Below are positions 6,786-18,857 of a stretch of DNA of 32,297 bases, piece by piece. The stretch lies in contig WGDB01000077.1 of the NCBI GenBank assembly GCA_015493495.1, positions 1 to 32,297 on the forward strand, in the 5' to 3' direction. The notes under the pieces are model-generated. The model was not told the origin of the DNA. It did no database searches and saw nothing but the letters and a program-made list of their open reading frames with translations. Position 1 is the first letter of the stretch. Every line of letters starts with the position of its first letter. The position numbers and the translations under genes were made by a program. This stretch comes from Helicobacteraceae bacterium. Lineage in GTDB: Bacteria; Campylobacterota; Campylobacteria; Campylobacterales; Sulfurimonadaceae.

Positions 6786-8030
6786 TTATCTTCCTTGAGC
6801 AGCATCTCCAAGACTCCACATTGGTAAGAAGATACCCAGTGCCAGAAGTAAAACAAGACCGGCAATAACACCCAACATAATAGGCTCAATAGCTTCTGCC
6901 AAACCATCGATAATAGCATCGAATCGCATTTTATAGTACTCTGTTACCTTATCGAGCATGGCATCAAGCTGACCAGATGATTCACCTGCCTTGACCATCT
7001 GTATAACCATGTTTTCAAAAAGTCCTGTCTCTTCAAGGCCCTCTTTAAGACTGCCTCCCTTTTCAACAGTCGCAAGGATTAGACCAAACTTCTTTTTCAT
7101 TGGCAAGTTGTCCGTCATATTAATAGCGGTCTCAAGAGCCTCAGAAATTGGAATACCTGAACGTACCAATTCAGAGAAGACCAGAGTGAATCGGCTTAAA
7201 GAAGAGTATAAAATAATCCCTTTAATGATTTTGGTACGAAGTAAAAGTTGATGAAACCTATATCTGAATTCCATGTTATTGTCGACCATGTATTTGATAC
7301 TTAAATAAATAGTAACAACACCTGCTAGTACATAGAGACCGTACTGTGTCAAGGCATCAGACAAAAATAGAAGGATCAATGTAGGTAGTGGTAACTCTGC
7401 ACCCAAAGAGGCAAAGATACTTTTAAACTGAGGAACAACAAAACTTAGTAGAATAGTAAAGGCCACTGCCATAGCTATCATAACATTACGAGGATAGGCC
7501 ATTGCTTTTTTAAATTTGATCACGTTTTTACGGATCTCTTCGAGCATATCACCCAAGTTGTTCAGAGCTTCTGCCATGTTACCAGTTTTCTCACCCAGAT
7601 CGATCATGGCTAGGGTAAGTCCACCTACTTGAGAACGGTAGGTATCCATAGACTTATAGAAACTTGAACCCGCATTAATATCTTCGGCACAGTTACTAAG
7701 AATATCTTTAAGGGTGGGATCGTCTGTTGCTTCTGCAAGATCCGAGAGAGACTGATGCAGAGAGATACCGGCATTGGTCATTACAGCAAGTTGTTGTATA
7801 GCTGCGATCAAGGCATCGGGTTTAAGTTTTTTCTTTTTAGCATTTTTAAAGATGTTGTCTTTAAACTGCGCAAATTGGTCTTCAAGCGGTGCAGAAGTTT
7901 CATCAAGTTTGACCAAGATACCGGAGTATTTGGCTTTGGCCATATAGTGAGCCTCTTTCTTGCTCTCTGCATAAAAGTTGTGCTCAGTCTTTTTACCACG
8001 CGCCAATACGGTAGCTGTAAAGTGTTTCAT
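6786..8030 (-). CDS. GspF/PilC/MshG-type inner-membrane platform protein
   Basis: Polytopic membrane protein of 414 residues that in type II secretion and type IV pilus machines forms the base on which pilin subunits are assembled, working with the cytoplasmic ATPase. Two copies of the T2SSF domain are visible: the first about residues 85-205 with a hydrophobic segment after AYPRN, the second about 285-410 ending in a long hydrophobic stretch (LGVIAGLVLLLALGIF). The conserved GEKTGNMAEAL and GESSGQLDAML segments occupy the same place in each repeat. An N-terminal cytoplasmic extension of about 80 residues precedes them. The start overlaps the end of the ATPase gene by four bases (ATGA). It is the last gene of the nine-gene operon and corresponds to mshG, or to ctsF of Campylobacter. 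Confidence 0.93.
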   Translation of the reverse strand: MKHFTATVLARGKKTEHNFYAESKKEAHYMAKAKYSGILVKLDETSAPLEDQFAQFKDNIFKNAKKKKLKPDALIAAIQQLAVMTNAGISLHQSLSDLAEATDDPTLKDILSNCAEDINAGSSFYKSMDTYRSQVGGLTLAMIDLGEKTGNMAEALNNLGDMLEEIRKNVIKFKKAMAYPRNVMIAMAVAFTILLSFVVPQFKSIFASLGAELPLPTLILLFLSDALTQYGLYVLAGVVTIYLSIKYMVDNNMEFRYRFHQLLLRTKIIKGIILYSSLSRFTLVFSELVRSGIPISEALETAINMTDNLPMKKKFGLILATVEKGGSLKEGLEETGLFENMVIQMVKAGESSGQLDAMLDKVTEYYKMRFDAIIDGLAEAIEPIMLGVIAGLVLLLALGIFLPMWSLGDAAQGR

Positions 8031-9769
8031 GATTTTACCACCCTTAAGATCTCTTCTAAGGTTGTTACGCCGCTAGCAACCTTCTTCATTCCATTAACAA
8101 ACATAGGTTCAAAGCCCTCTTTAAGTGCCTGTTCTATCATAGCATCTTTTGAAGCACTTTGGGCGATCATACTCGAAAGTGTCTCAGAAATAGGTAATAC
8201 TTCTGAGATCATCTCTCGTCCTGTATAACCTGCACCGTTACACTCTTTACAACCGGCCCCTTTATAAAAAATGGTATCGTCTGGAAAGTATTGTTTATAA
8301 GGTGCTAAGACAGAAGCTGGAAGCTGCTCTTCAACTTTGCAGGCTGGACAGATCTTACGGATAAGACGTTGTGCCTGAATAGCGACAACTGAGCCACTGA
8401 TAAGGTAAGGCTCTATCCCCATATCGACCATACGAGGAATGGAACTGACGGCATCGTTGGTGTGCAGGGTAGAGATAACCAAGTGACCGGTCAGTGCTGC
8501 TTTAATAGCAATCTCCAGTGTCTCTTGGTCACGGATCTCACCGATCATGATCTTGTCGGGATCCTGACGAAGGATAGAGCGGAGAGCATCAGCGAAGCTA
8601 AGTCCAACGCTGGCCTTAACCTGAACCTGTTGAATCAAGTTCATACGGTACTCTACAGGGTCTTCGACGGTAATGACTTTCTCTTCAACACTTCTCAGTT
8701 CATTTAGTGCACCATAAAGTGTCGTGGTCTTACCTGAACCGGTAGGACCGGTTACCAAGATAATACCGTAAGGTGTCATCAGAGCTTTGTGAAGCTTTTT
8801 GTATCCGGCCTCATCCATACCTGCATCTTCAAGTTTGACCAAGGCTTTCTCTTTGTCGAGTACACGCATAACGATAGACTCACCATACATAATTGGCAGT
8901 GTAGAGAAACGGAAGTCATACTCACGTCCACCAACTGGTGTAGAAAAACGTCCATCTTGAGGTTTGCGTTTTTCAGCAATATCCAAGTTGGCAAGGATCT
9001 TCAGTCTTGAGGCAAGCGGCGGGTAGATGTCTTTGTCGAAGATAAAGACTTCAGAGAGTTTGCCATCAATTCTGGCACGGACCGTACAGTTATTCTCTGT
9101 AGGTTCAATGTGAATATCACTTGCACGTGCTTTAATACAAGCTTTTAAGATGACTTCGATGAGTTGCAAGATAGAAGAAGCTTCAGCAGCATCTTTGGTC
9201 TGTTCTCTACCTATGGAGTTTAACTCGTTACGAATGTTGATCACAAGCTCTTTGACACTGTCTTTAAGTTCAACTTTAAAAAGATAAGCCTGGATCTGCT
9301 TTTCAGTTGCTACGGCAATATCTATAGGTTTTCTAGGGAAGAGTCGTTGAATGGCCTCTTGTGCTTCGATATTAAGAGGATCTAAAAAAGCAATAGTGAC
9401 AGAGAGGTCGTTCTCTTTAATAGGGAGGGCATTGAAACGTTTGAGCTGTGAAAGAGGTATGCGGTCTGTTAATCTATAGTCCATGTCGATCGAATCTAGA
9501 TCTAAAAATTGGAAGTCCATCACTTCTGCAAGGTGCTGCATCACCGATTGCGCATCTAAAAAATGGTATTGTTTAATGATTGATATATCATATTGCCCAG
9601 AGCGTATCTGCTCAACTACAAATCTTTTGACAAAGTTGACAGAGACTGCACCGACTTTAGTCAATGTCTCAAGCAGAGTATCGTTATCTACACCTGCCCG
9701 TTGAAGTCTGTCGATTTGCTCTTTAGAGATATGACCTTGGGCTAATAAATCGGTGGTGATTCTATCCAT
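8027..9769 (-). CDS. GspE/PilB/MshE-type assembly ATPase
   Basis: Cytoplasmic hexameric ATPase powering pilus or pseudopilus assembly, 580 residues. The N-terminal 150 residues resemble the MshEN/T2SSE N-domain. The catalytic part shows Walker A (GPTGSGKTTT, 341-350), an Asp box (VEDPVEYR, about 369-375), Walker B (PDKIMIGEIRD, about 404-414) and a His box (GHLVISTLHTND, about 428-439). Four cysteines in two CxxC pairs (474/477 and 507/510) form the zinc site of assembly ATPases, which retraction ATPases of the PilT type lack. No second ATPase of the PilT type is in the window. Placed between a small periplasmic protein gene and the platform gene; equivalent to mshE or ctsE. Confidence 0.95.
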   Translation of the reverse strand: MDRITTDLLAQGHISKEQIDRLQRAGVDNDTLLETLTKVGAVSVNFVKRFVVEQIRSGQYDISIIKQYHFLDAQSVMQHLAEVMDFQFLDLDSIDMDYRLTDRIPLSQLKRFNALPIKENDLSVTIAFLDPLNIEAQEAIQRLFPRKPIDIAVATEKQIQAYLFKVELKDSVKELVINIRNELNSIGREQTKDAAEASSILQLIEVILKACIKARASDIHIEPTENNCTVRARIDGKLSEVFIFDKDIYPPLASRLKILANLDIAEKRKPQDGRFSTPVGGREYDFRFSTLPIMYGESIVMRVLDKEKALVKLEDAGMDEAGYKKLHKALMTPYGIILVTGPTGSGKTTTLYGALNELRSVEEKVITVEDPVEYRMNLIQQVQVKASVGLSFADALRSILRQDPDKIMIGEIRDQETLEIAIKAALTGHLVISTLHTNDAVSSIPRMVDMGIEPYLISGSVVAIQAQRLIRKICPACKVEEQLPASVLAPYKQYFPDDTIFYKGAGCKECNGAGYTGREMISEVLPISETLSSMIAQSASKDAMIEQALKEGFEPMFVNGMKKVASGVTTLEEILRVVKS

Positions 9770-9777
9770 AATAACTC

Positions 9778-10326
9778 CTACCAGTAGATATGACGTTTTG
9801 TCATCTGCTTGTTTTGATACTCTTCTATGATCATTTTAGGAGAAGGACCACTTTTGGTGACATAAAGACGGTACATCTTAGTAGGGTCCTTCGGGTCTTT
9901 GTAATTGTAACGACGTTTTTGTTTAGATCCGCTGTCATGTGTGTAAAGATCAAAAACTGTAGACAAGACATACTCTGTAGTTGGGAGTCTTACAGGTTTA
10001 AGGTCGTATTGATCGCTTAAGGCATGTATCAATAGCTTTTTCTGCATTAAAATTACCGAAAAGTAGGCAGCATTTGCACGAGACTCAGGTGTTGCCTTGA
10101 GTGCGACAATAGGAAGTGCCAATTTGTCAATACGATCAGCGTTAAGACAAGAAAATGCATAGATAGAGAGCAACTCTTCATCTGTAATATTCTGACGTAA
10201 TATATTTTCGTCTGTTTTACAAACCTCTTGAAATTTCTCTGCCTGATAGAGTTTAAAAGTATCTGTCTTTAAATCTGCTAAGAGAAGCAGGGGAGTTAAA
10301 GAGAGTAGAGCAATTAGTCTTTTCAT
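9778..10326 (-). CDS. Small periplasmic protein of unknown function in the pilus operon
   Basis: A 182-residue protein I do not recognise. The first 17 residues (MKRLIALLSLTPLLLLA) are a signal peptide, so it probably acts in the periplasm. The mature part is helical in its first two thirds, with two cysteines (in EVCKTDEN and FSCLNAD) that could form a disulfide, and a basic C-terminal part ending in RHIYW. Its ATG overlaps the stop of the preceding TPR protein gene (ATGA), and it sits just upstream of the assembly ATPase, so it is almost certainly produced with the machine. The standard MSHA order has no gene at this position; I infer an accessory or lineage-specific part of the apparatus. 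Weak TPR/Sel1-like helices are possible. Confidence 0.75.
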   Translation of the reverse strand: MKRLIALLSLTPLLLLADLKTDTFKLYQAEKFQEVCKTDENILRQNITDEELLSIYAFSCLNADRIDKLALPIVALKATPESRANAAYFSVILMQKKLLIHALSDQYDLKPVRLPTTEYVLSTVFDLYTHDSGSKQKRRYNYKDPKDPTKMYRLYVTKSGPSPKMIIEEYQNKQMTKRHIYW

Positions 10327-11237
10327 TTGAATGTTCCTTTTTTTATCTCAGTTAGCAGGGCCTTAGCTTTTATAGAACGAGATTTTTTATAATAACTGTT
10401 CAGCTTGTTAACTGCTTTGTCTTTTCTTCCTAGTTTTACTAAGGATTTAGCGTACAGTATGACACCGTCTTCAATCTTAGGGTTTAGCTTAAGGGTCTCT
10501 CTCGCATATTTATAGGATTGCGTATAGTCGCCTTTTCCATAATATTTATTAGCAATAAAGAGACTTAGTGCCGGCTTCTTCTTTCGATTGAAACGTTTAA
10601 TAACCCCTTTTAATTCATCATCAGAAGTCTGAACATGACCGACCTTCACCTCTTCTTGAGCTTGTTTGAGCACCGCCGTATTATGGGCGTCTAAGACTAC
10701 CACTTTAGTTATCTCTTTTTTAGGTGCTATAGGTTTAGTAGCAGCACTTTTTTTAGCAGCATGTCTTTTGGCAGCAAGGATTTTGGCTTTTCGACGTTTT
10801 AGAGCTTCTTTTTTACGTTGTGCTGCCTCTCTTCTTTTGAGTGCAAGTTCACGTGCACTTTGAGCGGCTTGTGTCTGTCGTTCTAACCGTTCTTGCTCTA
10901 GTTGAGCACTCAGAATCTCCCCTTTGACAATAGAAGTAAAGACAAATGAAGGCTGTAAGATATTTTGTGGAATATCTATTTTTTTGGTAACTGTAGCAAC
11001 TTCTCTCTTTGACGTAACAGTTTTTGTTTGAACGACTTTCGTAGTAACAGAGGGCTTTTTTGTTGAGAGCGTTATTGTCTTGTCTACACTGCTCTGTAAG
11101 ATGTCTGTAGCTAGATAGAAATAGCCAGAAACACCGGCAAGCACGGATATAAAAACGGCAGCACCAACATAACGCGGTAACATCTTTTTAAAGTGGTATT
11201 TAGACCATCTCTTTTCTAATTCAGGGACATCAAGCAT
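10323..11237 (-). CDS. Membrane-anchored TPR protein, MshN-like (possibly CtsX-like)
   Basis: About 304 residues: a short cytoplasmic N-terminus, one transmembrane helix near residues 24-45 (YVGAAVFISVLAGVSGYFYLA), a linker rich in Thr, Val and Lys, a long basic alanine/lysine/arginine helix or coiled coil about 110-175, and two or three TPR-like helix pairs about 205-300 (KYYGKGDYTQSYKYARETL). This matches MshN, a TPR protein encoded between mshM and mshE. In Campylobacter the position is taken by CtsX, a membrane protein reported to partner CtsP; whether the two are homologous I cannot tell. I choose the ATG at 11237 over the TTG at 11240 because AGGA lies seven bases before it. The start lies inside the end of the AAA ATPase gene. 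Confidence 0.8.
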   Translation of the reverse strand: MLDVPELEKRWSKYHFKKMLPRYVGAAVFISVLAGVSGYFYLATDILQSSVDKTITLSTKKPSVTTKVVQTKTVTSKREVATVTKKIDIPQNILQPSFVFTSIVKGEILSAQLEQERLERQTQAAQSARELALKRREAAQRKKEALKRRKAKILAAKRHAAKKSAATKPIAPKKEITKVVVLDAHNTAVLKQAQEEVKVGHVQTSDDELKGVIKRFNRKKKPALSLFIANKYYGKGDYTQSYKYARETLKLNPKIEDGVILYAKSLVKLGRKDKAVNKLNSYYKKSRSIKAKALLTEIKKGTFK

Positions 11238-12042
11238 CAATAAATCCTGTGTGTATAGCAGCCATCTCTATAAGTTTGGTAGGAATAGCATCAAATTTTA
11301 CGGCTGATGGGTTATTGTCTTCATACCAACTACAGATTTCAAAAAGTCCATAAAGCAACTTGTTTGTATCACGATAGTTTCCATTTGTAAATTGGTGTAT
11401 CGTTTTAACTGCCTTGTCGCTAAACATATTGGCAAGATCAAAAAAGTTAGCACGTAACAACTTCTTTTGTATATAGATCGTTAATTCAGAGGGAAGGGCA
11501 TTTTGTAACTCTTGACTCTCCCATATACGTGTTTGAAAGTGCTCTTTTGCGATCAAGTCCTCTTTTTGTGTTTTATGAAGTGCAAAAATAAACTTCACTT
11601 TTCTAGAATCAGAGATCAGTCTAATCTTTTCCATCAAGGATTCAGAATAAAGTTGGGCCTCATCCAAGATAACCACTGGTGTTACCTCCACCTCAAAATG
11701 GTTAGCAAGTTCCATGAACTGTGTAAAATTCAGATGCTCGTTGGTATTGAAGCGAAAGATCTCATATGCAAGTACTTTGAAAAACTCTATCTCGTCTATA
11801 ATAGGTGTTTGAATATAGACGACCTTCTGCTTAGGTGAGAGCTCTTTGTACAGCTTGTTAAGCATCATACTTTTACCCGTTCCAGGTTTACCAAAAACAA
11901 GGATCATCTTAAGTGGTTTTTGAATAGCCTCTTTTAAGGCGTGATAGATGGCAACACTACGGTCTAATTGAACGTAGTCTTTTGAGTCAACAATATCCTG
12001 AAAGACCTCTTTTGAATTGTGAAATACTTTAGAGCTCTTCAT
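11230..12042 (-). CDS. ExeA/MshM-type AAA ATPase (CtsP-like)
   Basis: Cytoplasmic or membrane-associated P-loop ATPase of 270 residues with Walker A (GKPGTGKS, about 51-58) and Walker B (PVVILDEAQ), followed by a sensor region and a helical lid (FTNGNYRDTNKLLYG). This is the AAA_22 type found in ExeA of Aeromonas, which helps assemble the secretin, and in MshM. Campylobacter CtsP, needed for DNA uptake, is a nucleotide-binding protein in the same position. ExeA itself has an extra C-terminal peptidoglycan-binding domain; this protein ends without one, as MshM does. It overlaps the secretin gene by 14 bases at its start and the TPR gene by 8 at its end, indicating coupled translation. Confidence 0.88.
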   Translation of the reverse strand: MKSSKVFHNSKEVFQDIVDSKDYVQLDRSVAIYHALKEAIQKPLKMILVFGKPGTGKSMMLNKLYKELSPKQKVVYIQTPIIDEIEFFKVLAYEIFRFNTNEHLNFTQFMELANHFEVEVTPVVILDEAQLYSESLMEKIRLISDSRKVKFIFALHKTQKEDLIAKEHFQTRIWESQELQNALPSELTIYIQKKLLRANFFDLANMFSDKAVKTIHQFTNGNYRDTNKLLYGLFEICSWYEDNNPSAVKFDAIPTKLIEMAAIHTGFIDA

Positions 12043-13711
12043 CAGCCTCTTTACTTTCTAACGTGACATCATCTTCAGCAGTGACATTATCATCTTCGCT
12101 AAATGTAGCTTTGAGTCCCGCTTCCTCTTTAGTTACAGAAGTGTATCCAAGGTCTGCAATGGTAAGTGTATTACCTTCAGGCTTAATGATGTGTGGTTCA
12201 ATAACTATAACAAGTTCTTCCACATTTCTTACTTTTTCTTCATATTTAAAGAAATAACCAAGACCTGGTATGTCTCCTAAAAGAGGTACTTTGTTGGTCT
12301 TAAAGTTTTCCCGTGAACCAATAAGTCCACCTAGGATGATGCGGTTACCATCTTTAACGGTGACCACTGCAGAGAGTTGACGACGGTCAAGGTCAGGCGG
12401 CATAGTACGGTTTTCTTGATCCGCTGTATCACTAGAGATCGGCACACGTGTCTGACTTAAAGATGGATTCACCTTAAGCGTAATTGTGTCATTTTCACCA
12501 ATTTCAGGGGTGATATCTAATAAAACACCGGCAAAAACAGAGTTTATCATGTTGTTCTGTGTGGTGAAATTGCCACCAGCACTTGCAGAGTTTGATGCTT
12601 GCTCAATAGTGTAGAAGTACTCAGTACCTACTGTTATTAAGGCAGGTTGGTTGTTTAGGGTTAAGACTTTAGGGTTAGAAAGTGCCCGAACTTCACCTTG
12701 TTCTTTAAGGAACTTGATTACTTCGTTTAAAGACCCACCACCTGTTATTTGAACCATACCAGCGGCTTTGGTTGTAAGGGTCAAGAGATTACCAGTAGGA
12801 GTATATGTTCCTGATCCCGAACGAGAGACACTGTCAATAGCTACTTTGAAATTGGTAAGACCATAAAGTTGCGACCAATCTATACCTGTTGCTGATTTAT
12901 CATCAAAAAGGACGGCCATCATACTTACGTCAATAAGGACTTGGCGCTGGACCTTCTCTTGTAAAAGTTTAAGATAAGCATCAATACGTGCTTGCTGACG
13001 ACCTGTTGCTGAGATAGTGATAAGACCTGCATTTTTGTTGATAATAGGGGCTTCTGCCTGATACGCATCTTCAGGACGATTGAGCACACGTTGAAGTTCA
13101 AGATCTAACTCTTCCCAAAACTTCACTTCATCAGTAGACTCAATGGAAATACCAGACTTGTTGGAACCTGATTGGGAGTCCATACCACCCATACCGCCGC
13201 CACCAGGCATACCACCACCCATAGCACCACCGCCACCCATAGCACCGCCGCCCATAGCACCACCGCCCATACCACCTTGAGCGCCCATCTGTCCACCTAT
13301 AGAGGCAGAACTGGAACTTAACATAACATCAGTTGAACCCTTACTTTTACGTTGAGATAAAATATAATCGATGTTATATGTGATTGTTTTAAGGTATGAA
13401 ATACGTAAAATATCATTATCTATGGTAAAGTTCAGATTGTTCTCTGTTAAAAGAATCTCAAACACTTCATCAATAGTAAGGTTCTTAATATGGGTTTTAT
13501 TAAGTTTCTTGTCCATAAGCTTTTCAGTTTCACTGTCAGCAACAACCAAACTGTACTCACATGCTGTTGTTAGTTGATCAACATACTCACCAATAGTGGT
13601 TCCTTTTGCAGAAGAGATGCTAAAGAGTTCATAAGTACAATCGGCTTGCATAGAAGATGCTAAGATGACTGAAGCAGCTAAAGAGATCAGCTTTTTATTT
13701 AGGTTTTTCAT
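12029..13711 (-). CDS. Outer-membrane secretin, MshL/PilQ/GspD type (CtsD-like)
   Basis: Secretin that forms the outer-membrane channel of the machine. A signal peptide (about residues 1-25, ending SSMQA) is followed by an STN-like N-terminal domain (about 35-105). A glycine/methionine-rich linker comes next (about 140-180), then a secretin N-domain with IISATGRQQARIDAYL-type sequence. The C-terminal secretin barrel contains ALSNPKVLTLNNQPALITVG and GNRIILGGLIGSRE...VPLLGDIPGLGYFF, a strong family signature. The protein ends in an acidic tail. Two ATGs lie six bases apart; I use the second (13711), eight bases from AAGGA, though 13717 is possible. It corresponds to mshL, or ctsD in Campylobacter. 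Confidence 0.95.
   Translation of the reverse strand: MKNLNKKLISLAASVILASSMQADCTYELFSISSAKGTTIGEYVDQLTTACEYSLVVADSETEKLMDKKLNKTHIKNLTIDEVFEILLTENNLNFTIDNDILRISYLKTITYNIDYILSQRKSKGSTDVMLSSSSASIGGQMGAQGGMGGGAMGGGAMGGGGAMGGGMPGGGGMGGMDSQSGSNKSGISIESTDEVKFWEELDLELQRVLNRPEDAYQAEAPIINKNAGLITISATGRQQARIDAYLKLLQEKVQRQVLIDVSMMAVLFDDKSATGIDWSQLYGLTNFKVAIDSVSRSGSGTYTPTGNLLTLTTKAAGMVQITGGGSLNEVIKFLKEQGEVRALSNPKVLTLNNQPALITVGTEYFYTIEQASNSASAGGNFTTQNNMINSVFAGVLLDITPEIGENDTITLKVNPSLSQTRVPISSDTADQENRTMPPDLDRRQLSAVVTVKDGNRIILGGLIGSRENFKTNKVPLLGDIPGLGYFFKYEEKVRNVEELVIVIEPHIIKPEGNTLTIADLGYTSVTKEEAGLKATFSEDDNVTAEDDVTLESKEADEEL
13181..13297 (-). repeat. Gly/Met-rich tandem repeat inside the secretin gene
   Basis: The minus strand encodes a low-complexity stretch of about 39 residues built from GGGAM and GGMGG units. 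At DNA level it is an imperfect tandem of about 15 bases (plus strand CCCATAGCACCACCG and close variants). It falls between the STN-like domain and the secretin core, so it is probably a flexible linker. Slipped-strand length variation between strains would be expected and could stay in frame when whole units are gained or lost. Confidence 0.75.
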
Positions 13712-13727
13712 TTTCATTTTCCTTTTA

Positions 13728-14153
13728 TCAATTCACGTTAAATTGGATCTTGTCATTTTTGTTGTTAAGGTAAAGTACTAGATCTTTCTTTTTACTTTTA
13801 AGATGTGCTTCGCCACCAGAGACTTTTATAATAGTGTATTCTCTAATGCGATCTCCCTCTTTATACCATTTACCATTAACTTTAATATTTTTATTAATAG
13901 CTGATTCAAGTTTTAGCGGTTTGAGTCTGATACGTTTTTTTGCTTCTATAACTGTACGTGTCTTGCCACTTTTTGTCTTGATCGTCTTAAGATATAAAAA
14001 AGGACTTTTCACTTTTGCAATAGCTCTGTTACTTACACCAACACGAGGAGGCTTTATCTCTTCTATCTGCGTGTTAATGGTTTCATGCGAAGTACTAATC
14101 GGATCCGCATAAACGGCAAGTGGCAATAAGGCCACAAATAGTAACTTTTTCAT
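13728..14153 (-). CDS. Small periplasmic protein, PilP/MshK/CtsR-like by position
   Basis: About 141 residues with a signal peptide (MKKLLFVALLPLAVYA). The mature protein is basic and its C-terminal half looks like a small beta domain (NGKWYKEGDRIREYTIIKVSGGEAHLKSKKK), similar in style to PilP/GspC HR domains and to MshK: a 'work level' loop followed by repeated short strands. Such proteins link the inner-membrane PilN/PilO pair to the secretin. I use the ATG at 14153, whose A is shared with the TAA stop of the PilO-like gene (TAATG), rather than the upstream start of the ORF track, because it puts the signal peptide at the N-terminus. In Campylobacter the small gene next to ctsD is ctsR. Homology is suggested by place and architecture, not by a strong motif. 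Confidence 0.75.
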   Translation of the reverse strand: MKKLLFVALLPLAVYADPISTSHETINTQIEEIKPPRVGVSNRAIAKVKSPFLYLKTIKTKSGKTRTVIEAKKRIRLKPLKLESAINKNIKVNGKWYKEGDRIREYTIIKVSGGEAHLKSKKKDLVLYLNNKNDKIQFNVN

Positions 14154-14785
14154 TAATATGTAATCCCCCAAACTGATAGATTTAGGTCAAGGTTGATCTT
14201 TCTAGATGCATTCATATCCAAATCATGAATATCAACAACCAACTTGCTTTTTTCAATTGAGTTCATAAACTTCATGATGTTTTTATAATCACCTTCTGAA
14301 CTAATGTTGATATTAAGTACGTGACCGAACTTCGTTTTATCACTAGCAAGTTTGTTAGAGAAGAAATTTAGTTTTACCTTGTTGCGTCTCGCATGCTCGG
14401 AAATGGAGTCAATAAATGAACCCCAAATCTCTTCATCATAAAAGAGCTCGGGGATCTTTTCGATCTCTGCTTTAATATAGACGTTTTCACCCTTAAGCAT
14501 CTCTAAGTTTTGATTGAGTTGCGCGATCTCTTGATTTAACTTGGTAATCTGGCTTTCCGGGTGTTGTGCAAGATACTGCTTGTCAACAGTGATCTTCTCT
14601 TGCACAGCCTTTGATGCTGCTAGAATATCTTGATACCCCTTCTCAGCAGAGTCCCAAAAGACAAGATAAGAGAATGTAACCAAAGCAACAAATACCATAC
14701 CATAGATAAGTTTGACGTCTTTGTCACTCTTCTCGGCAAAACTCTGATCGATATCATAGAGATATTTTTCAATTATTGCACTCAT
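14153..14785 (-). CDS. PilO/MshJ-like inner-membrane alignment protein
   Basis: Bitopic membrane protein of 210 residues: about 25 cytoplasmic residues, one transmembrane helix (about 27-45, LIYGMVFVALVTFSYLVFW), a periplasmic coiled coil (about 55-110, with heptad-like LNQEIAQLNQNLEMLKGE) and a C-terminal alpha/beta domain (NINISSEGDYKNIMKFMNSIEKS) of the type found in PilO, GspM and MshJ. In these machines it pairs with PilN to connect the cytoplasmic ATPase platform to the periplasmic PilP and secretin. It overlaps the preceding PilM-PilN-like gene by four bases (ATGA) and the next gene by one, so the proteins are likely made in matched amounts. Confidence 0.82.
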   Translation of the reverse strand: MSAIIEKYLYDIDQSFAEKSDKDVKLIYGMVFVALVTFSYLVFWDSAEKGYQDILAASKAVQEKITVDKQYLAQHPESQITKLNQEIAQLNQNLEMLKGENVYIKAEIEKIPELFYDEEIWGSFIDSISEHARRNKVKLNFFSNKLASDKTKFGHVLNINISSEGDYKNIMKFMNSIEKSKLVVDIHDLDMNASRKINLDLNLSVWGITY

Positions 14786-16317
14786 TTTAGCACCGCCTTC
14801 ATCTCACTTAAGTAGCGATTTTTATCTTCATCAAATGTGATCTCTTCTAACACGAAGTGGAATCGTGTTGTCTTCTTTTTTGTCAAATACTCAAGTAGAC
14901 GAGTTATCTCTTTATCTTTATGAGAGATCATATGGAAGGTAAACCCTTTGAAATCTTTAGCTTGATTGTATGAAAGTTTTTCTAACTTGACGTTAAATTT
15001 GTTCAAATCAGCTGCAAATTCAGTTATAAGTTTGGCTTTCATAGGGTAGTCGACTTTGACATCATGAATCTTTTCAAGTGTATTCATCTGTCTGTCTAGC
15101 TCTGTTTGCTCGGCCAGTACAAGTTTGGTAACAGCAGTTTTCTCAACTGTTTTGAGGTTTATAGTTGCTTCTCTTGTTGTCTTGATACTGTGAATTTCAT
15201 TATATTCGGTGTCAAGGAGTGATTTGTTTAGCTCTTCAGCAAAAGTCAAACTCCAAAAAGCAACAGGATAAGAGAAGGCAACTACAAGGGCAAGTCCAGA
15301 GATAGCGATGAGTTTACCACTGGCGCGTTGCATGAACTTTGGTGGACGTGGATAAAGAGAGAAGTTACACTCATAACGTTCATCACTCTCTGTCATTGTA
15401 TAGAGGTGCATAAGTTGATGTACTTGATCTACATACTGACCGTTAGTATCAAAGCCATAGTCGAAGTCAAAAGTCTTTGAGATAAGACCTAGATAGGTCT
15501 GTGAGTACTCATCCAGACCTGCAATAGTACCGATCTGTGAACCGATGTAGATCTGGTCAATAGTCTCAAGTTCAAAGGCACGTTTAGAATAGGTAAGTAC
15601 ATCATTAATATGTAAAAAGAGTTCACCAAAAAGCTTAATAAGGTCGCGTTGGTACTCTTTGTTTTCAGCACCAAGTCCCTCTCCAGACAACATCTGTATG
15701 AAGAGTGGCATACCGATCTGCTCACCATAAAGCTCACTAAAACGTTCATACATCATACTGATAGAGTACTTTAGTGATTTGGTATAGACAAATTCTTGGT
15801 CGTTATAGATTGTGAAAAAAGCATCATTGTCTTGAAAATAGATATAACAGTGAACACCTACGTCTTGAATGATCTCTCTTTGGTAAAGACCTTTTATAAG
15901 TAATGGTACGGGTACGATCTGATCGATATACTTTATCTTTTCCACTGTGACTTCAAAGGTCTCATCCATCGTAATTGGGTCAACAATAAAGACATGGAAG
16001 TATCGCTCTTTGTCATTTAGTTGATGACTTGATTCGATATATTGGATGTTATAGGCAATCGCCATGTCTAGGGCAAGATCTTCATAAACCTTGTTCTCAA
16101 TGGCGAATGCCAGATCATCATCTGGTATGTTTTTACTTACGCCAACAAGTGCTGTTAAAAAATCATTGGTGTTAAGGTAGGACATTGCATACTGGGTTTT
16201 AGAAAAAGATATTGATCTAGCTTGCTCTAATTTACCAGATGCACCTACGTAGTAAGTCTCTTTGTAAGGGTTAATAGAAAGGACACTTGTAAATGCCGGT
16301 TGTTGCGTTTTACTCAT
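14782..16317 (-). CDS. PilM-PilN-like fusion (MshI/GspL type)
   Basis: First gene of the pilus/secretion operon, 511 residues. The N-terminal part (about 1-325) has no membrane segment and looks like the actin-like PilM/GspL cytoplasmic domain (VLSINPYKETYYVGAS at the start, later QIYIGSQIGTIAGLDEY). One transmembrane helix follows at about 336-362 (LIAISGLALVVAFSYPVAFW), then a coiled coil (about 365-425) and a PilN-like periplasmic alpha/beta domain. In classical type IV pili, PilM and PilN are separate proteins; joining them resembles GspL, and this is the place of mshI. It should recruit the assembly ATPase to the membrane. The ATG has TAGGA eight bases upstream. Confidence 0.82.
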   Translation of the reverse strand: MSKTQQPAFTSVLSINPYKETYYVGASGKLEQARSISFSKTQYAMSYLNTNDFLTALVGVSKNIPDDDLAFAIENKVYEDLALDMAIAYNIQYIESSHQLNDKERYFHVFIVDPITMDETFEVTVEKIKYIDQIVPVPLLIKGLYQREIIQDVGVHCYIYFQDNDAFFTIYNDQEFVYTKSLKYSISMMYERFSELYGEQIGMPLFIQMLSGEGLGAENKEYQRDLIKLFGELFLHINDVLTYSKRAFELETIDQIYIGSQIGTIAGLDEYSQTYLGLISKTFDFDYGFDTNGQYVDQVHQLMHLYTMTESDERYECNFSLYPRPPKFMQRASGKLIAISGLALVVAFSYPVAFWSLTFAEELNKSLLDTEYNEIHSIKTTREATINLKTVEKTAVTKLVLAEQTELDRQMNTLEKIHDVKVDYPMKAKLITEFAADLNKFNVKLEKLSYNQAKDFKGFTFHMISHKDKEITRLLEYLTKKKTTRFHFVLEEITFDEDKNRYLSEMKAVLK

Positions 16318-16381
16318 CGCAATAAATCCTAATGCTGTAAATTATTCAAAATTAATTGAACGTAACTCTCTATACTGTTTT

Positions 16382-16387
16382 ATTATA
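16382..16387 (-). promoter_or_regulatory. Candidate -10 box for the pilus/secretion operon
   Basis: The minus strand reads GATTATAATAAAAC, giving a perfect TATAAT about 65 bases before the first ATG of the operon. AT-rich sequence extends upstream, as in sigma-70 promoters of this phylum that lack a -35 box. The same region also contains a TATAAT on the plus strand (16384-16389), so orientation is not certain. Confidence 0.4.
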
Positions 16388-16419
16388 ATCAACAGACAAT
16401 TTAAATAGAGAAGATAATA

Positions 16420-16497
16420 ATGAAAACTTATCTATCTTCTGTTTCTAACTTCATTTTAGCCATATTAAACTTAAATATATTCTTATGTGTTAAATAA
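16420..16497 (+). CDS. Possible 25-residue hydrophobic small protein
   Basis: This frame is too short for the ORF track. An ATG preceded six bases earlier by AGAGAAG, itself about 20 bases after a plus-strand TATAAT, opens MKTYLSSVSNFILAILNL and ends at TAA after 25 codons. The middle is hydrophobic enough for a short membrane helix. The arrangement promoter-SD-ORF is suggestive, but in such AT-rich sequence it could arise by chance. Function unknown. Confidence 0.2.
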   Translation: MKTYLSSVSNFILAILNLNIFLCVK

Positions 16498-16688
16498 AAA
16501 GATAAATATTGGAATATTTATACGTTTATGCGCAAAGTATGTCAATGAAACGTGTGTGAGGCGTGTTCAAATAGTAGTTATGGCTATTTTAAATACAGAG
16601 ATAATATATTGTTATCAAACTCAGATTGATGGTCAACTTTTTTAAAGAACCATTTTCAAAGAGTTTGTGTTTATTACAATAGGGTCTG

Positions 16689-17582
16689 TTAGTTGATATA
16701 GCCTAGCTCTTCGAGCATCTGTTTATCATTGGTCCACCCTTTTTTCACTGAGACAAAAAGTTCAAGAAAGACTGTTTTGCCAGCGAGTTGTTCTATCTTT
16801 TGACGGGCACCTTGACCAATGCGTTTAATGGCAGCACCACCTTTACCAATAATAATCCCTTTTTGACTCTCTTTTTCAATAATTATAGTGGCACGAATAT
16901 GCTCAATTTTGCCTTTTTCTTCGATTTTATCGATCACGACATCAGATTCGTAAGGAATCTCATCGCTTATGTTGTCAAAAATTGCTTCGCGAATAAACTC
17001 TCTATATATATCACGCAGTCGCTCATCTGTTAGATCATCAGGATCAAAGAGGTATGGTGAGTTGTCAAGTTGTTTTGCAATTAGATCAAGAAGATTATTT
17101 TTCCCTACATTCTTTGTTACAGACATAGGAATCAGTGCCTCGAATGATGATGAAAAGGCATTGTACTCCATAATACGAGATAATAGCTCTTTTTGAGAGA
17201 CTTGATCTATCTTGGAGAGGGCAATAATATGTTTACGGCCTTTAGCCGTAACCTCCAAAAAATGCTTGTAGTGTTTAACTGAATCTGCTGCAGGCGCTAA
17301 GTAGACAAGCACATCACAATCACCAATGGCTTTGAGGGCCTCTTCAAGCATAAATTGGTTGAGTACTTTCTCTTTTTCATGTAAGCCCGGGGTGTCAACA
17401 AAGATAAGCTGATCATCATTGTGCATCACTATAGCGTTGAGACGACGGCGTGTTGCATTTGCTTTTTGTGACGTCATGGCAATCTTTTCACCAAGTATCC
17501 AGTTAAGCATGGTACTTTTTCCAGCATTAGGACGACCTACTAATGCAACGAAGCCAGCCTTATGCGCAGTAACGTTACTCAC
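16689..17582 (-). CDS. era: GTPase Era
   Basis: Essential GTP-binding protein that binds the 3' end of 16S rRNA and helps mature the small ribosomal subunit. Of its 297 residues, the N-terminal GTPase domain shows G1 (GRPNAGKS, about 16-23), G3 ([11 protein letters not shown]) and G4 (LSKIDQV). The C-terminal KH domain contains [21 protein letters not shown], the RNA-binding signature. The start is GTG, lying inside the last codons of rplI (GGTGAGTAA), an 8-base overlap, with GAGGT placed six bases upstream. In Campylobacter and Helicobacter, as I recall, hslV and hslU lie between rplI and era; here they are absent. Confidence 0.97.
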
Positions 17583-18021
17583 CGATGACCTCTAAGTGAA
17601 TTGTTCCGTGCATACCGTGGCCAAGTTTAAAGTCAAGGTCATGAATTCCTGTACTTTTAATCGCTTCTTTGTGGTTTATATGCTTTTTGTCGATCTCTAA
17701 ATTATGCTGCTCTTTAAGTGCATGTGCGATCTCATCTTTAGTTACTGCTCCAAAAAGGTGACCTGTATTACCCAGCTTTTTAGTGATGGTTACTTTAACT
17801 TTGTCAAGCTTTTCAGCAAGTACTTTCAGGTCAGTAAGCTCTTGTGCCTCACTTTCAGCTTTTTTGCGTTCTGCTGAAGCATGCTTTTTAAGGACTTCAT
17901 TAGTTGCGACTTTAGCAAGACCTTTTCCTACTAAGAAGTTTTGACCATAGCCATCTTTAACTTCCTTGACTTCACCTGCTTTTCCAAGCCCTTTAACATC
18001 TTTGATCAATAATACTTTCAT
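17575..18021 (-). CDS. rplI: Large ribosomal subunit protein bL9
   Basis: Ribosomal protein L9 of 148 residues, the usual length. The N-terminal rRNA-binding domain reads [28 protein letters not shown], the family signature including the conserved DGYGQNFL. A long connecting helix (about 40-75, [22 protein letters not shown]) and the C-terminal domain ([13 protein letters not shown], later [23 protein letters not shown]) follow. AGGA precedes the ATG by six bases. It heads a two-gene unit with era and lies downstream of the FTR-rhodanese gene, from which a hairpin separates it. Confidence 0.97.
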
Positions 18022-18098
18022 TTTGGTTCCTAAATTTTATATTGTTGAAGGTATTGTAGCGTGAGTAGGTAAAGAGGGAGATAACTTATAAAGAGGGG

Positions 18099-18117
18099 AG
18101 GTGGCAAAAAGCCACCT
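18099..18117 (-). terminator. Hairpin after the FTR-rhodanese gene
   Basis: AGGTGGC-AAAAA-GCCACCT is a perfect 7-bp stem with a five-base loop starting about 20 bases beyond the FTR-rhodanese stop codon. On the minus strand the stem is followed by CCCCTCTTT rather than a clean T run, so it may be a terminator or simply a 3'-end stabilising structure. It separates this transcript from rplI-era. Confidence 0.45.
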
Positions 18118-18137
18118 TATGTAAAAACTACTAGGTT

Positions 18138-18857
18138 TTATTGCTCTTTTTCACCAGGAAATGAGACAATTCCATAAGAGAGATTACCAACTTTAGTGTA
18201 ACCCATGTCTGCCAAGATACGGGCACAGTGTGCACTACGGCTACCAACGTGACAGTAGACGATGACATTTTCATCTTGTGCCAGTTTAGCATCATCCAAG
18301 GCAGCAAAGAAGTTACTGGTTGGAATGATCTTGTCTGCTCCCTTAATATGACCCATCTGCCACTCCATTGGCTCACGAACATCTACAAGCGTAAAGTTGA
18401 CCATACCCAAGTCTCTTGCTTCGAGTAGGGCAATAAGCTCATCACCATCAAGTTCATCTTTGTCCACTAAAACAGTACACTCCTCTTTACTAAGACCACG
18501 TGAGTGTTGGTGTACTACCTCTTCGATGACCTCTTCTTGTGCTTGTGCAGCAGCATATTCAGGCGTACAGAAGATCTGACAGTGACAAACACCATCTTCA
18601 GGGATCTCTTTTTCAATAGCTGGAGGGCAAGGACAGACTCTGTCATCTGCCTCACCTGTGACAAAGAAACAAGGACAGTAGCGTTTGCCATGCATCAACT
18701 TGTTTCTTGTGAGTCCATACTGTATACCTTGGTTGATCTCTTGGTCTGGGTTATACGCCCAACCAAACTGTGCAACCACCTTGTCGGTAAAACGGACGGT
18801 CTTTTCTAATGTGTCTTTAAACTCTTGTGATTCTGGATCGATTTTTACAGTACTCAT
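18138..18857 (-). CDS. Ferredoxin-thioredoxin reductase catalytic domain fused to rhodanese
   Basis: A 239-residue fusion. Residues about 10-105 are an FTR catalytic (beta) domain: CPC at 61-63, CPC at 75-77 and CHC at 91-93, followed by QIF. By analogy with plant FTR, C61, C75, C77 and C91 should hold a 4Fe-4S cluster and C63 with C93 form the redox disulfide; the spacings (11 and 13) differ from the plant 16 and 8. Residues about 125-239 are a rhodanese domain with LVDVREPMEWQMGHI and the active-site loop YCHVGSRS (C202). No FTR variable subunit is nearby. It may reduce a thioredoxin-like partner or pass sulfur through the rhodanese cysteine; both are inference. AAAGG lies six bases before the ATG; argG ends 58 bases upstream and may share its transcript. 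Confidence 0.9.
   Translation of the reverse strand: MSTVKIDPESQEFKDTLEKTVRFTDKVVAQFGWAYNPDQEINQGIQYGLTRNKLMHGKRYCPCFFVTGEADDRVCPCPPAIEKEIPEDGVCHCQIFCTPEYAAAQAQEEVIEEVVHQHSRGLSKEECTVLVDKDELDGDELIALLEARDLGMVNFTLVDVREPMEWQMGHIKGADKIIPTSNFFAALDDAKLAQDENVIVYCHVGSRSAHCARILADMGYTKVGNLSYGIVSFPGEKEQ

Follow-up and report, generated by a model that had tools for sequence, protein, structure and literature searches.

The stretch of DNA analyzed here (32,297 nucleotides in full; hereinafter the window) contains a nine-gene operon that quite likely encodes the assembly machine of a retractable type IV pilus (T4P) of the MSHA clade, which is uncoupled from c-di-GMP, has some of its parts encoded in trans and probably also takes up DNA. 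By membership, the machine is of the MSHA type, a split and c-di-GMP-uncoupled variant that is orthologous to the Cts system of Campylobacter jejuni. Comparison of sequences establishes the homology of the products, the gene order, the phylogenetic position, the parts present and the loss of a motif from the extension ATPase. The source is a metagenome-assembled genome (MAG) with a total of 2.57 Mb on 173 contigs (completeness 99.88%, contamination 4.6%); this genome is Sulfurimonas-like, and the closest named loci belong to a Campylobacterales MAG (secretin identity 80%) and to Sulfurimonas-like contigs.

The operon and its products

The nine-gene operon is real: positions 6786-16317 hold nine co-directional, mostly overlapping open reading frames on the minus strand in the order I-J-K-L-M-N-X-E-G (Table 1). 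The preliminary description of nine such genes in MSHA order agrees with the map of open reading frames and with the order in the Aeromonas (L066) and Legionella (L067) loci. Overlaps occur at the J/I (4 bp), K/J (19 bp), M/L (14 bp), N/M (11 bp), X/N (4 bp) and G/E (4 bp) junctions, and gaps separate L from K (10 bp) and E from X (8 bp). Within the operon, there is no pilin gene and no prepilin peptidase gene; upstream of I, promoter-like matches were found only at a near-chance level.

Table 1. Coordinates and assignments of the operon genes and of two conserved upstream neighbors
Gene	Coordinates	Strand	Length (aa)	Product and evidence
I	14782..16317	-	511	predicted PilM-like actin-fold domain, long helix and C-terminal alpha/beta domain
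J	14153..14785	-	210	PilO/MshJ-family inner-membrane alignment protein; Pfam PilO 1.4e-8
K	13728..14171	-	147	small exported protein at MshK/CtsR position; iterated profile
L	12029..13717	-	562	MSHA-type secretin, MshL = CtsD; TIGR02519, Pfam Secretin 4.9e-45
M	11230..12042	-	270	MshM/CtsP AAA ATPase; AAA_22 7.4e-13
N	10323..11240	-	305	MshN-position membrane protein, C-terminal TPR; corresponds to CtsX
X	9778..10326	-	182	extra exported protein; helical repeats and 4-stranded sheet (model)
E	8027..9769	-	580	MshE/CtsE extension ATPase; T2SSE 5.7e-130, MshEN 1.6e-16; c-di-GMP motif absent
G	6786..8030	-	414	inner-membrane platform protein MshG/CtsF; T2SSF 2.5e-55
era	16689..17582	-		GTPase; conserved upstream neighbor of window-type operons
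rplI	17575..18021	-	148	conserved upstream neighbor of the operon

The search of the products against protein families, which had been proposed earlier, bore out the assignments for most genes, with an MshL match over the cut-off and matches to T2SSE and MshEN, T2SSF, PilO and AAA_22; no significant Pfam or NCBIfam match was obtained for I, K or X. The secretin scores 267.1 bits with the TIGR02519 MshL model against a curated cut-off of 250.2 bits.

For the remaining proteins, structural models and iterated profiles were used. The AlphaFold model of I (pLDDT 85.9; alignment of 35 sequences) comprises an actin-like domain, a long helix that probably includes a membrane span, and, at the C-terminus, an alpha/beta domain; among solved structures, the top Foldseek match is PilM of Pseudomonas aeruginosa (2.0e-14), followed by other PilM proteins. 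The C-terminal half of I is read as PilN-like from its topology only, so that I would be a fusion of PilM-like and PilN-like parts that in Aeromonas are separate genes (291 and 197 aa). The J profile captures the Aeromonas protein at the MshJ position, and the K profile captures CtsR-position proteins along with those that occupy the MshK position in Aeromonas and Legionella. Through the P-loop common to E and M, E proteins were also pulled in by the iterated M profile, so the M assignments rest on phmmer matches to ctsP and mshM and on the position, which agrees with both. The Pfam TPR matches of N are weak; its profile reaches the 195-aa protein at the CtsX position (8e-46, final inclusive round) and gave no significant match to Aeromonas MshN. 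The X model (pLDDT 92.1) combines helical repeats with a four-stranded sheet and has no significant match among solved PDB folds. X is kept in most window-type loci and in three class C loci (see below), and iterated profiles found no counterpart in cts or MSHA loci.

The era-I neighborhood recurs in loci L079 and L087 and, with two intervening genes, in L068 and L071; in window-type loci of most families examined, the order is rplI-hslV-hslU-era-(msh). The hslV and hslU genes, which most relatives have between rplI and era, are missing here (16318-18857), and a gene for a protein with ferredoxin-thioredoxin-reductase-beta and rhodanese domains (18138-18857) is located between rplI and argG.

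Three locus types in Campylobacterota

Operons retrieved from 12 families and annotated with iterated profiles fall into three arrangements, denoted class A (window-type), class B (jejuni-type Campylobacter) and class C. Among 80 loci on named Campylobacterota contigs, 44 have the complete order IJKLMNXEG and 8 have IJKLMNEG.

Class B loci consist of K-L-M-N-E-G adjoining a gene for a 1186-aa protein. The published C. jejuni operon is ctsRDPXEF (PMC10893306), which corresponds to K-L-M-N-E-G in the same order; unlike the window operon, the cts locus lacks I, J and X and adjoins the 1186-aa gene rather than era. Locus L080 encodes proteins of 202, 195 and 519 aa, and its open frame for the secretin has 472 aa; these are the sizes of ctsP, ctsX, ctsE and ctsD as tabulated in PMC8308473. 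A DNA search for the jejuni-type locus among plasmid records returned nothing, so its identity as cts rests on protein sizes and neighbors; the 1186-aa neighbor agrees with the pyruvate:ferredoxin oxidoreductase listed beside the C. hepaticus locus (PMC6371046). The match of the core genes to F-E-x-P-D-R of cts that was put forward in the preliminary description thus stands with respect to order and orthology, but the extra gene is not the "x" because, according to the profile, CtsX is gene N.

Class C is a second, fully clustered MSHA-type locus present in some genomes (L088, L090, L091, L092, L094, L096, L097 and L099). Its machine genes, I-J-K-L-M-N-(X)-E-G, follow the order seen in the window, but here the pilins are linked: where readable, the region immediately upstream of I consists of a giant gene followed by three minor-pilin-like genes and a pilin gene (giant-D-O-P-pilin).

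Several loci depart from these types. One genome (G129) with both class A and class C loci has a third, very divergent MSHA-like locus (L089), and in family f2 outside genus g18 (L075-L078, L107), the machine is reduced and fast-evolving, with M or I missing from some loci. No MshL match was found in the listed members of g18, which is taken to be Helicobacter because the machine is missing there.

Phylogenetic position

The main tree was built from the concatenated ATPase E, secretin L and platform G (38 systems, 1442 columns), with gammaproteobacterial MSHA represented by two loci only, those of Aeromonas and of a Legionella plasmid. The Campylobacterota loci and these two MSHA-type systems are separated from type II secretion systems (T2SS) and T4aP with support of 100/99. 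The three proteins lie beside MSHA and Cts proteins, and the outcome named beforehand as contrary to the proposal, placement within T2SS or T4aP, was not observed. The same tree upholds the earlier suggestion that the MSHA pilus and the Campylobacterota competence machine come from one ancestral locus. Class C is the sister group to classes A and B, and class B is nested within class A next to the class A loci of Campylobacteraceae type (89/95). In constraint tests, class A without B was rejected (AU p=0.015), as were class B with T2SS (p=9e-68) and class C with gammaproteobacterial MSHA (p=3e-6). Given that cts is nested in the group of the window operon, it is a relocated, stripped descendant. 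In a quick tree of the ATPase only, the backbone is unresolved, several branches are long and gammaproteobacterial MSHA groups with T2SS at 93; hence it is the combined data and the MshL profile that support the MSHA placement.

These results bear on the possibility that the operon encodes a T2SS or an ordinary T4aP, to which the PilB/GspE-like and GspF-like domain matches would correspond. This appears very improbable: the operon belongs to the MSHA clade, the grouping of cts with T2SS is rejected, the MshL cut-off passed by the window secretin is passed by none of 14 control genomes, and the same genome carries separate T2SS genes. In particular, its second secretin is a T2SS GspD with an N0 domain, and a GspG-type pseudopilin is encoded on contig C113; both are located on contigs other than that of the operon, so the T2SS is encoded separately.

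Agreement with and departure from MSHA systems

The window operon shares with the Vibrio/Aeromonas type the order I-J-K-L-M-N-E-G, the MshL family and membership in the MSHA clade, and differs from it in the extra X gene, in the absence of the c-di-GMP motif from E and in that no MshA or MshB was identified. The genome also has homologues of MshD, MshO and MshP, but its pilins are unlinked to the machine. MshE, MshG and MshM, which are mandatory in the MSH model of Denise 2019 (described in PMC6668835), are encoded in the operon. MshA, the major pilin, likewise mandatory but allowed to lie alone, might possibly correspond to either of two lone pilins, on contigs C101 and C168. MSH loci have no prepilin peptidase (PMC6668835), and the sole peptidase gene found here is on contig C33. 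MSH systems are almost exclusively single-locus (PMC6668835); with pilins on C164, C101 and C168 and not in the machine locus, this system is therefore a variant rather than a typical MSH member.

MSH systems have been reported previously in Epsilonproteobacteria (PMC6668835; the word Campylobacter was not found in its text), and some Campylobacter genes already carry the label mshL (PMC6371046). In a literature search that was thin in subscription papers, we found no paper deriving Cts from MSHA.

Loss of the c-di-GMP motif

The relaxed c-di-GMP-binding motif of the MshEN domain is known from Vibrio cholerae MshE (PMC5013675) and is a feature of that protein that is not demanded of every MSHA member. 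At least one copy is present in all 8 class C ATPases and both gammaproteobacterial MSHA ATPases, in contrast to 1 of 21 in class A (the early-branching L102), none of 4 in class B and none of the 59 E proteins of named loci. The window E retains the MshEN fold match and lacks the motif, from which we infer that its c-di-GMP binding has probably been lost.

Components encoded elsewhere in the genome

We searched the genome for N-terminal pilin motifs, prepilin peptidase, T2SSE-family ATPases and secretins. The tally is one prepilin peptidase (C33), four T2SSE-family ATPases, two of which exceed the PilT cut-off (C7 and C117), two secretins and the two lone pilins. The earlier expectation that pilins and the peptidase would be encoded elsewhere is thereby borne out. 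Because the other secretin belongs to a T2SS with its own pseudopilin, no other machine was found for the pilins and the tip module described below.

On contig C164, a gene for a giant protein of 1836 aa that has Ig and cadherin-like domains is followed by D-, O- and P-like genes. In relatives, the giant protein has LamG or Calx-beta domains, and the giant-D-O-P cluster likewise lies apart from the machine genes; most of the 12 loci read have hpf and recG at one end of the cluster and lon further out past the opposite end. In one genome, a protein that looks ComEA-like by eye (helix-hairpin-helix; L289:7843-8286) adjoins the unlinked cluster. Compared with Aeromonas, the D, O and P profiles match the proteins at the MshD position (3.3e-10), MshO (8.2e-10; another pilin scores equally, probably via the common N-terminus) and MshP (2.7e-6). 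The giant protein is not named MshQ here because nothing encoded in the Aeromonas or Legionella locus matched it significantly. In the tree of D, O and P, the unlinked modules, including that of the window genome, group in one clade and those linked to class C loci in another (100/100), even in genomes that have both, which implies that each type of machine has its own module.

The lone pilin family is represented in 118 of 150 genomes, including jejuni-type Campylobacter (g14), with no member found among the Helicobacter-like genomes listed. Cj0683 was considered as its equivalent and rejected, given a length of about 145 aa (PMC10046745) against about 190-250 aa in the family. In Campylobacteraceae-type genomes and in family f7, a gene for a multi-pass protein of ~400 aa with weak similarity to PMT_2 glycosyltransferases accompanies that of the lone pilin (L290:2617-4573, L292:3160-5079, L297:2729-4536), a partner that might possibly glycosylate the pilin.

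Possible functions: retraction, attachment and DNA uptake

The operon products probably form one envelope machine, with I, J and K as the alignment complex, L as the secretin, M and E as the ATPases, N as the TPR protein and G as the platform. The C164 cluster, with its adhesin-like giant protein and minor pilins, probably initiates and caps the fiber, the shaft of which would consist of one or both lone pilins, processed in trans by the C33 peptidase, and the two PilT-type ATPases would drive retraction. That these parts cooperate, and that the fiber is a retractable pilus freed from c-di-GMP switching via MshE, we infer from this inventory.

Co-occurrence across the phylum was assessed in 150 Campylobacterota genomes, counting MshO at a profile E below about 1e-8, which excludes N-terminal-only matches, and PilT over its cut-off. 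MshO and PilT are both present in 72 genomes, PilT alone in 5 and MshO alone in none, counts that are phylogenetically non-independent given that the genomes are related, so that a Fisher test overstates what they show as a probability. Neither was found in the 24 jejuni-type genomes or in the 16 g18 genomes counted. The cts genomes lack PilT and full-length MshO, whereas the window genome keeps PilT and an MshO homologue.

This pattern is most relevant to a pure DNA-uptake pseudopilus exactly like that of C. jejuni, with no long surface fiber, a pseudopilus having been the alternative raised in the preliminary description. Such a device would be in line with the orthology to cts, the lone pilin family common to both, the presence of ComEC in nearly all relatives and the uncoupling from c-di-GMP. 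Nevertheless, we regard it as unlikely and disfavor it relative to a real retractable pilus because window-type genomes retain the two PilT-type ATPases and the MshD/O/P-giant module, which were lost together in the jejuni group. For the same reason, "cts DNA-uptake type", the label given at the outset, is correct as to orthology but too narrow.

Conversely, the machine might be an attachment pilus only, DNA uptake having been acquired later by cts. The adhesin-like domains of the giant proteins point in that direction, as does the ComEC search of the window's MAG, in which no PF03772 match was found. This MAG, fragmented into 173 contigs, is the one exception among the 150 genomes, all 149 others having ComEC (in relatives, the gene follows one that resembles dnaB), and the missing gene is likely an assembly gap. 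The near-universal presence of ComEC argues against a role limited to attachment, as does the loss here of the c-di-GMP attachment switch that is kept in the paralogous class C, and we consider this possibility doubtful. In C. jejuni, ctsD (pilQ) and comEC are needed for DNA uptake and transformation (PMC10046745). The retractable pilus favored here would, by orthology, include DNA uptake among its functions, since the C. jejuni cts, its reduced descendant, performs it.

Implications for the evolution of competence

The family itself is known; what is new is the link between MSHA and Cts provided by the tree tests and the inventory of parts. Environmental relatives hold a fuller ancestral form of the reduced C. 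jejuni machine, and candidates for its missing parts can now be named: the lone pilin family, the MshD/O/P-giant tip, two PilT motors and gene X. Under a scenario that seems to us evenly balanced between right and wrong, the ancestral competence apparatus of Campylobacterota was a complete retractable pilus of the MSHA type that had a tip module of its own and was separate from the c-di-GMP-controlled MSHA pilus retained by some relatives; the loss of the c-di-GMP switch would have marked its specialization, and the jejuni-type lineage would then have shed the tip, the retraction motors and the alignment proteins to arrive at the minimal cts. The phylum would thus offer a natural experiment in the conversion of a c-di-GMP-switched attachment pilus into a DNA-uptake device.
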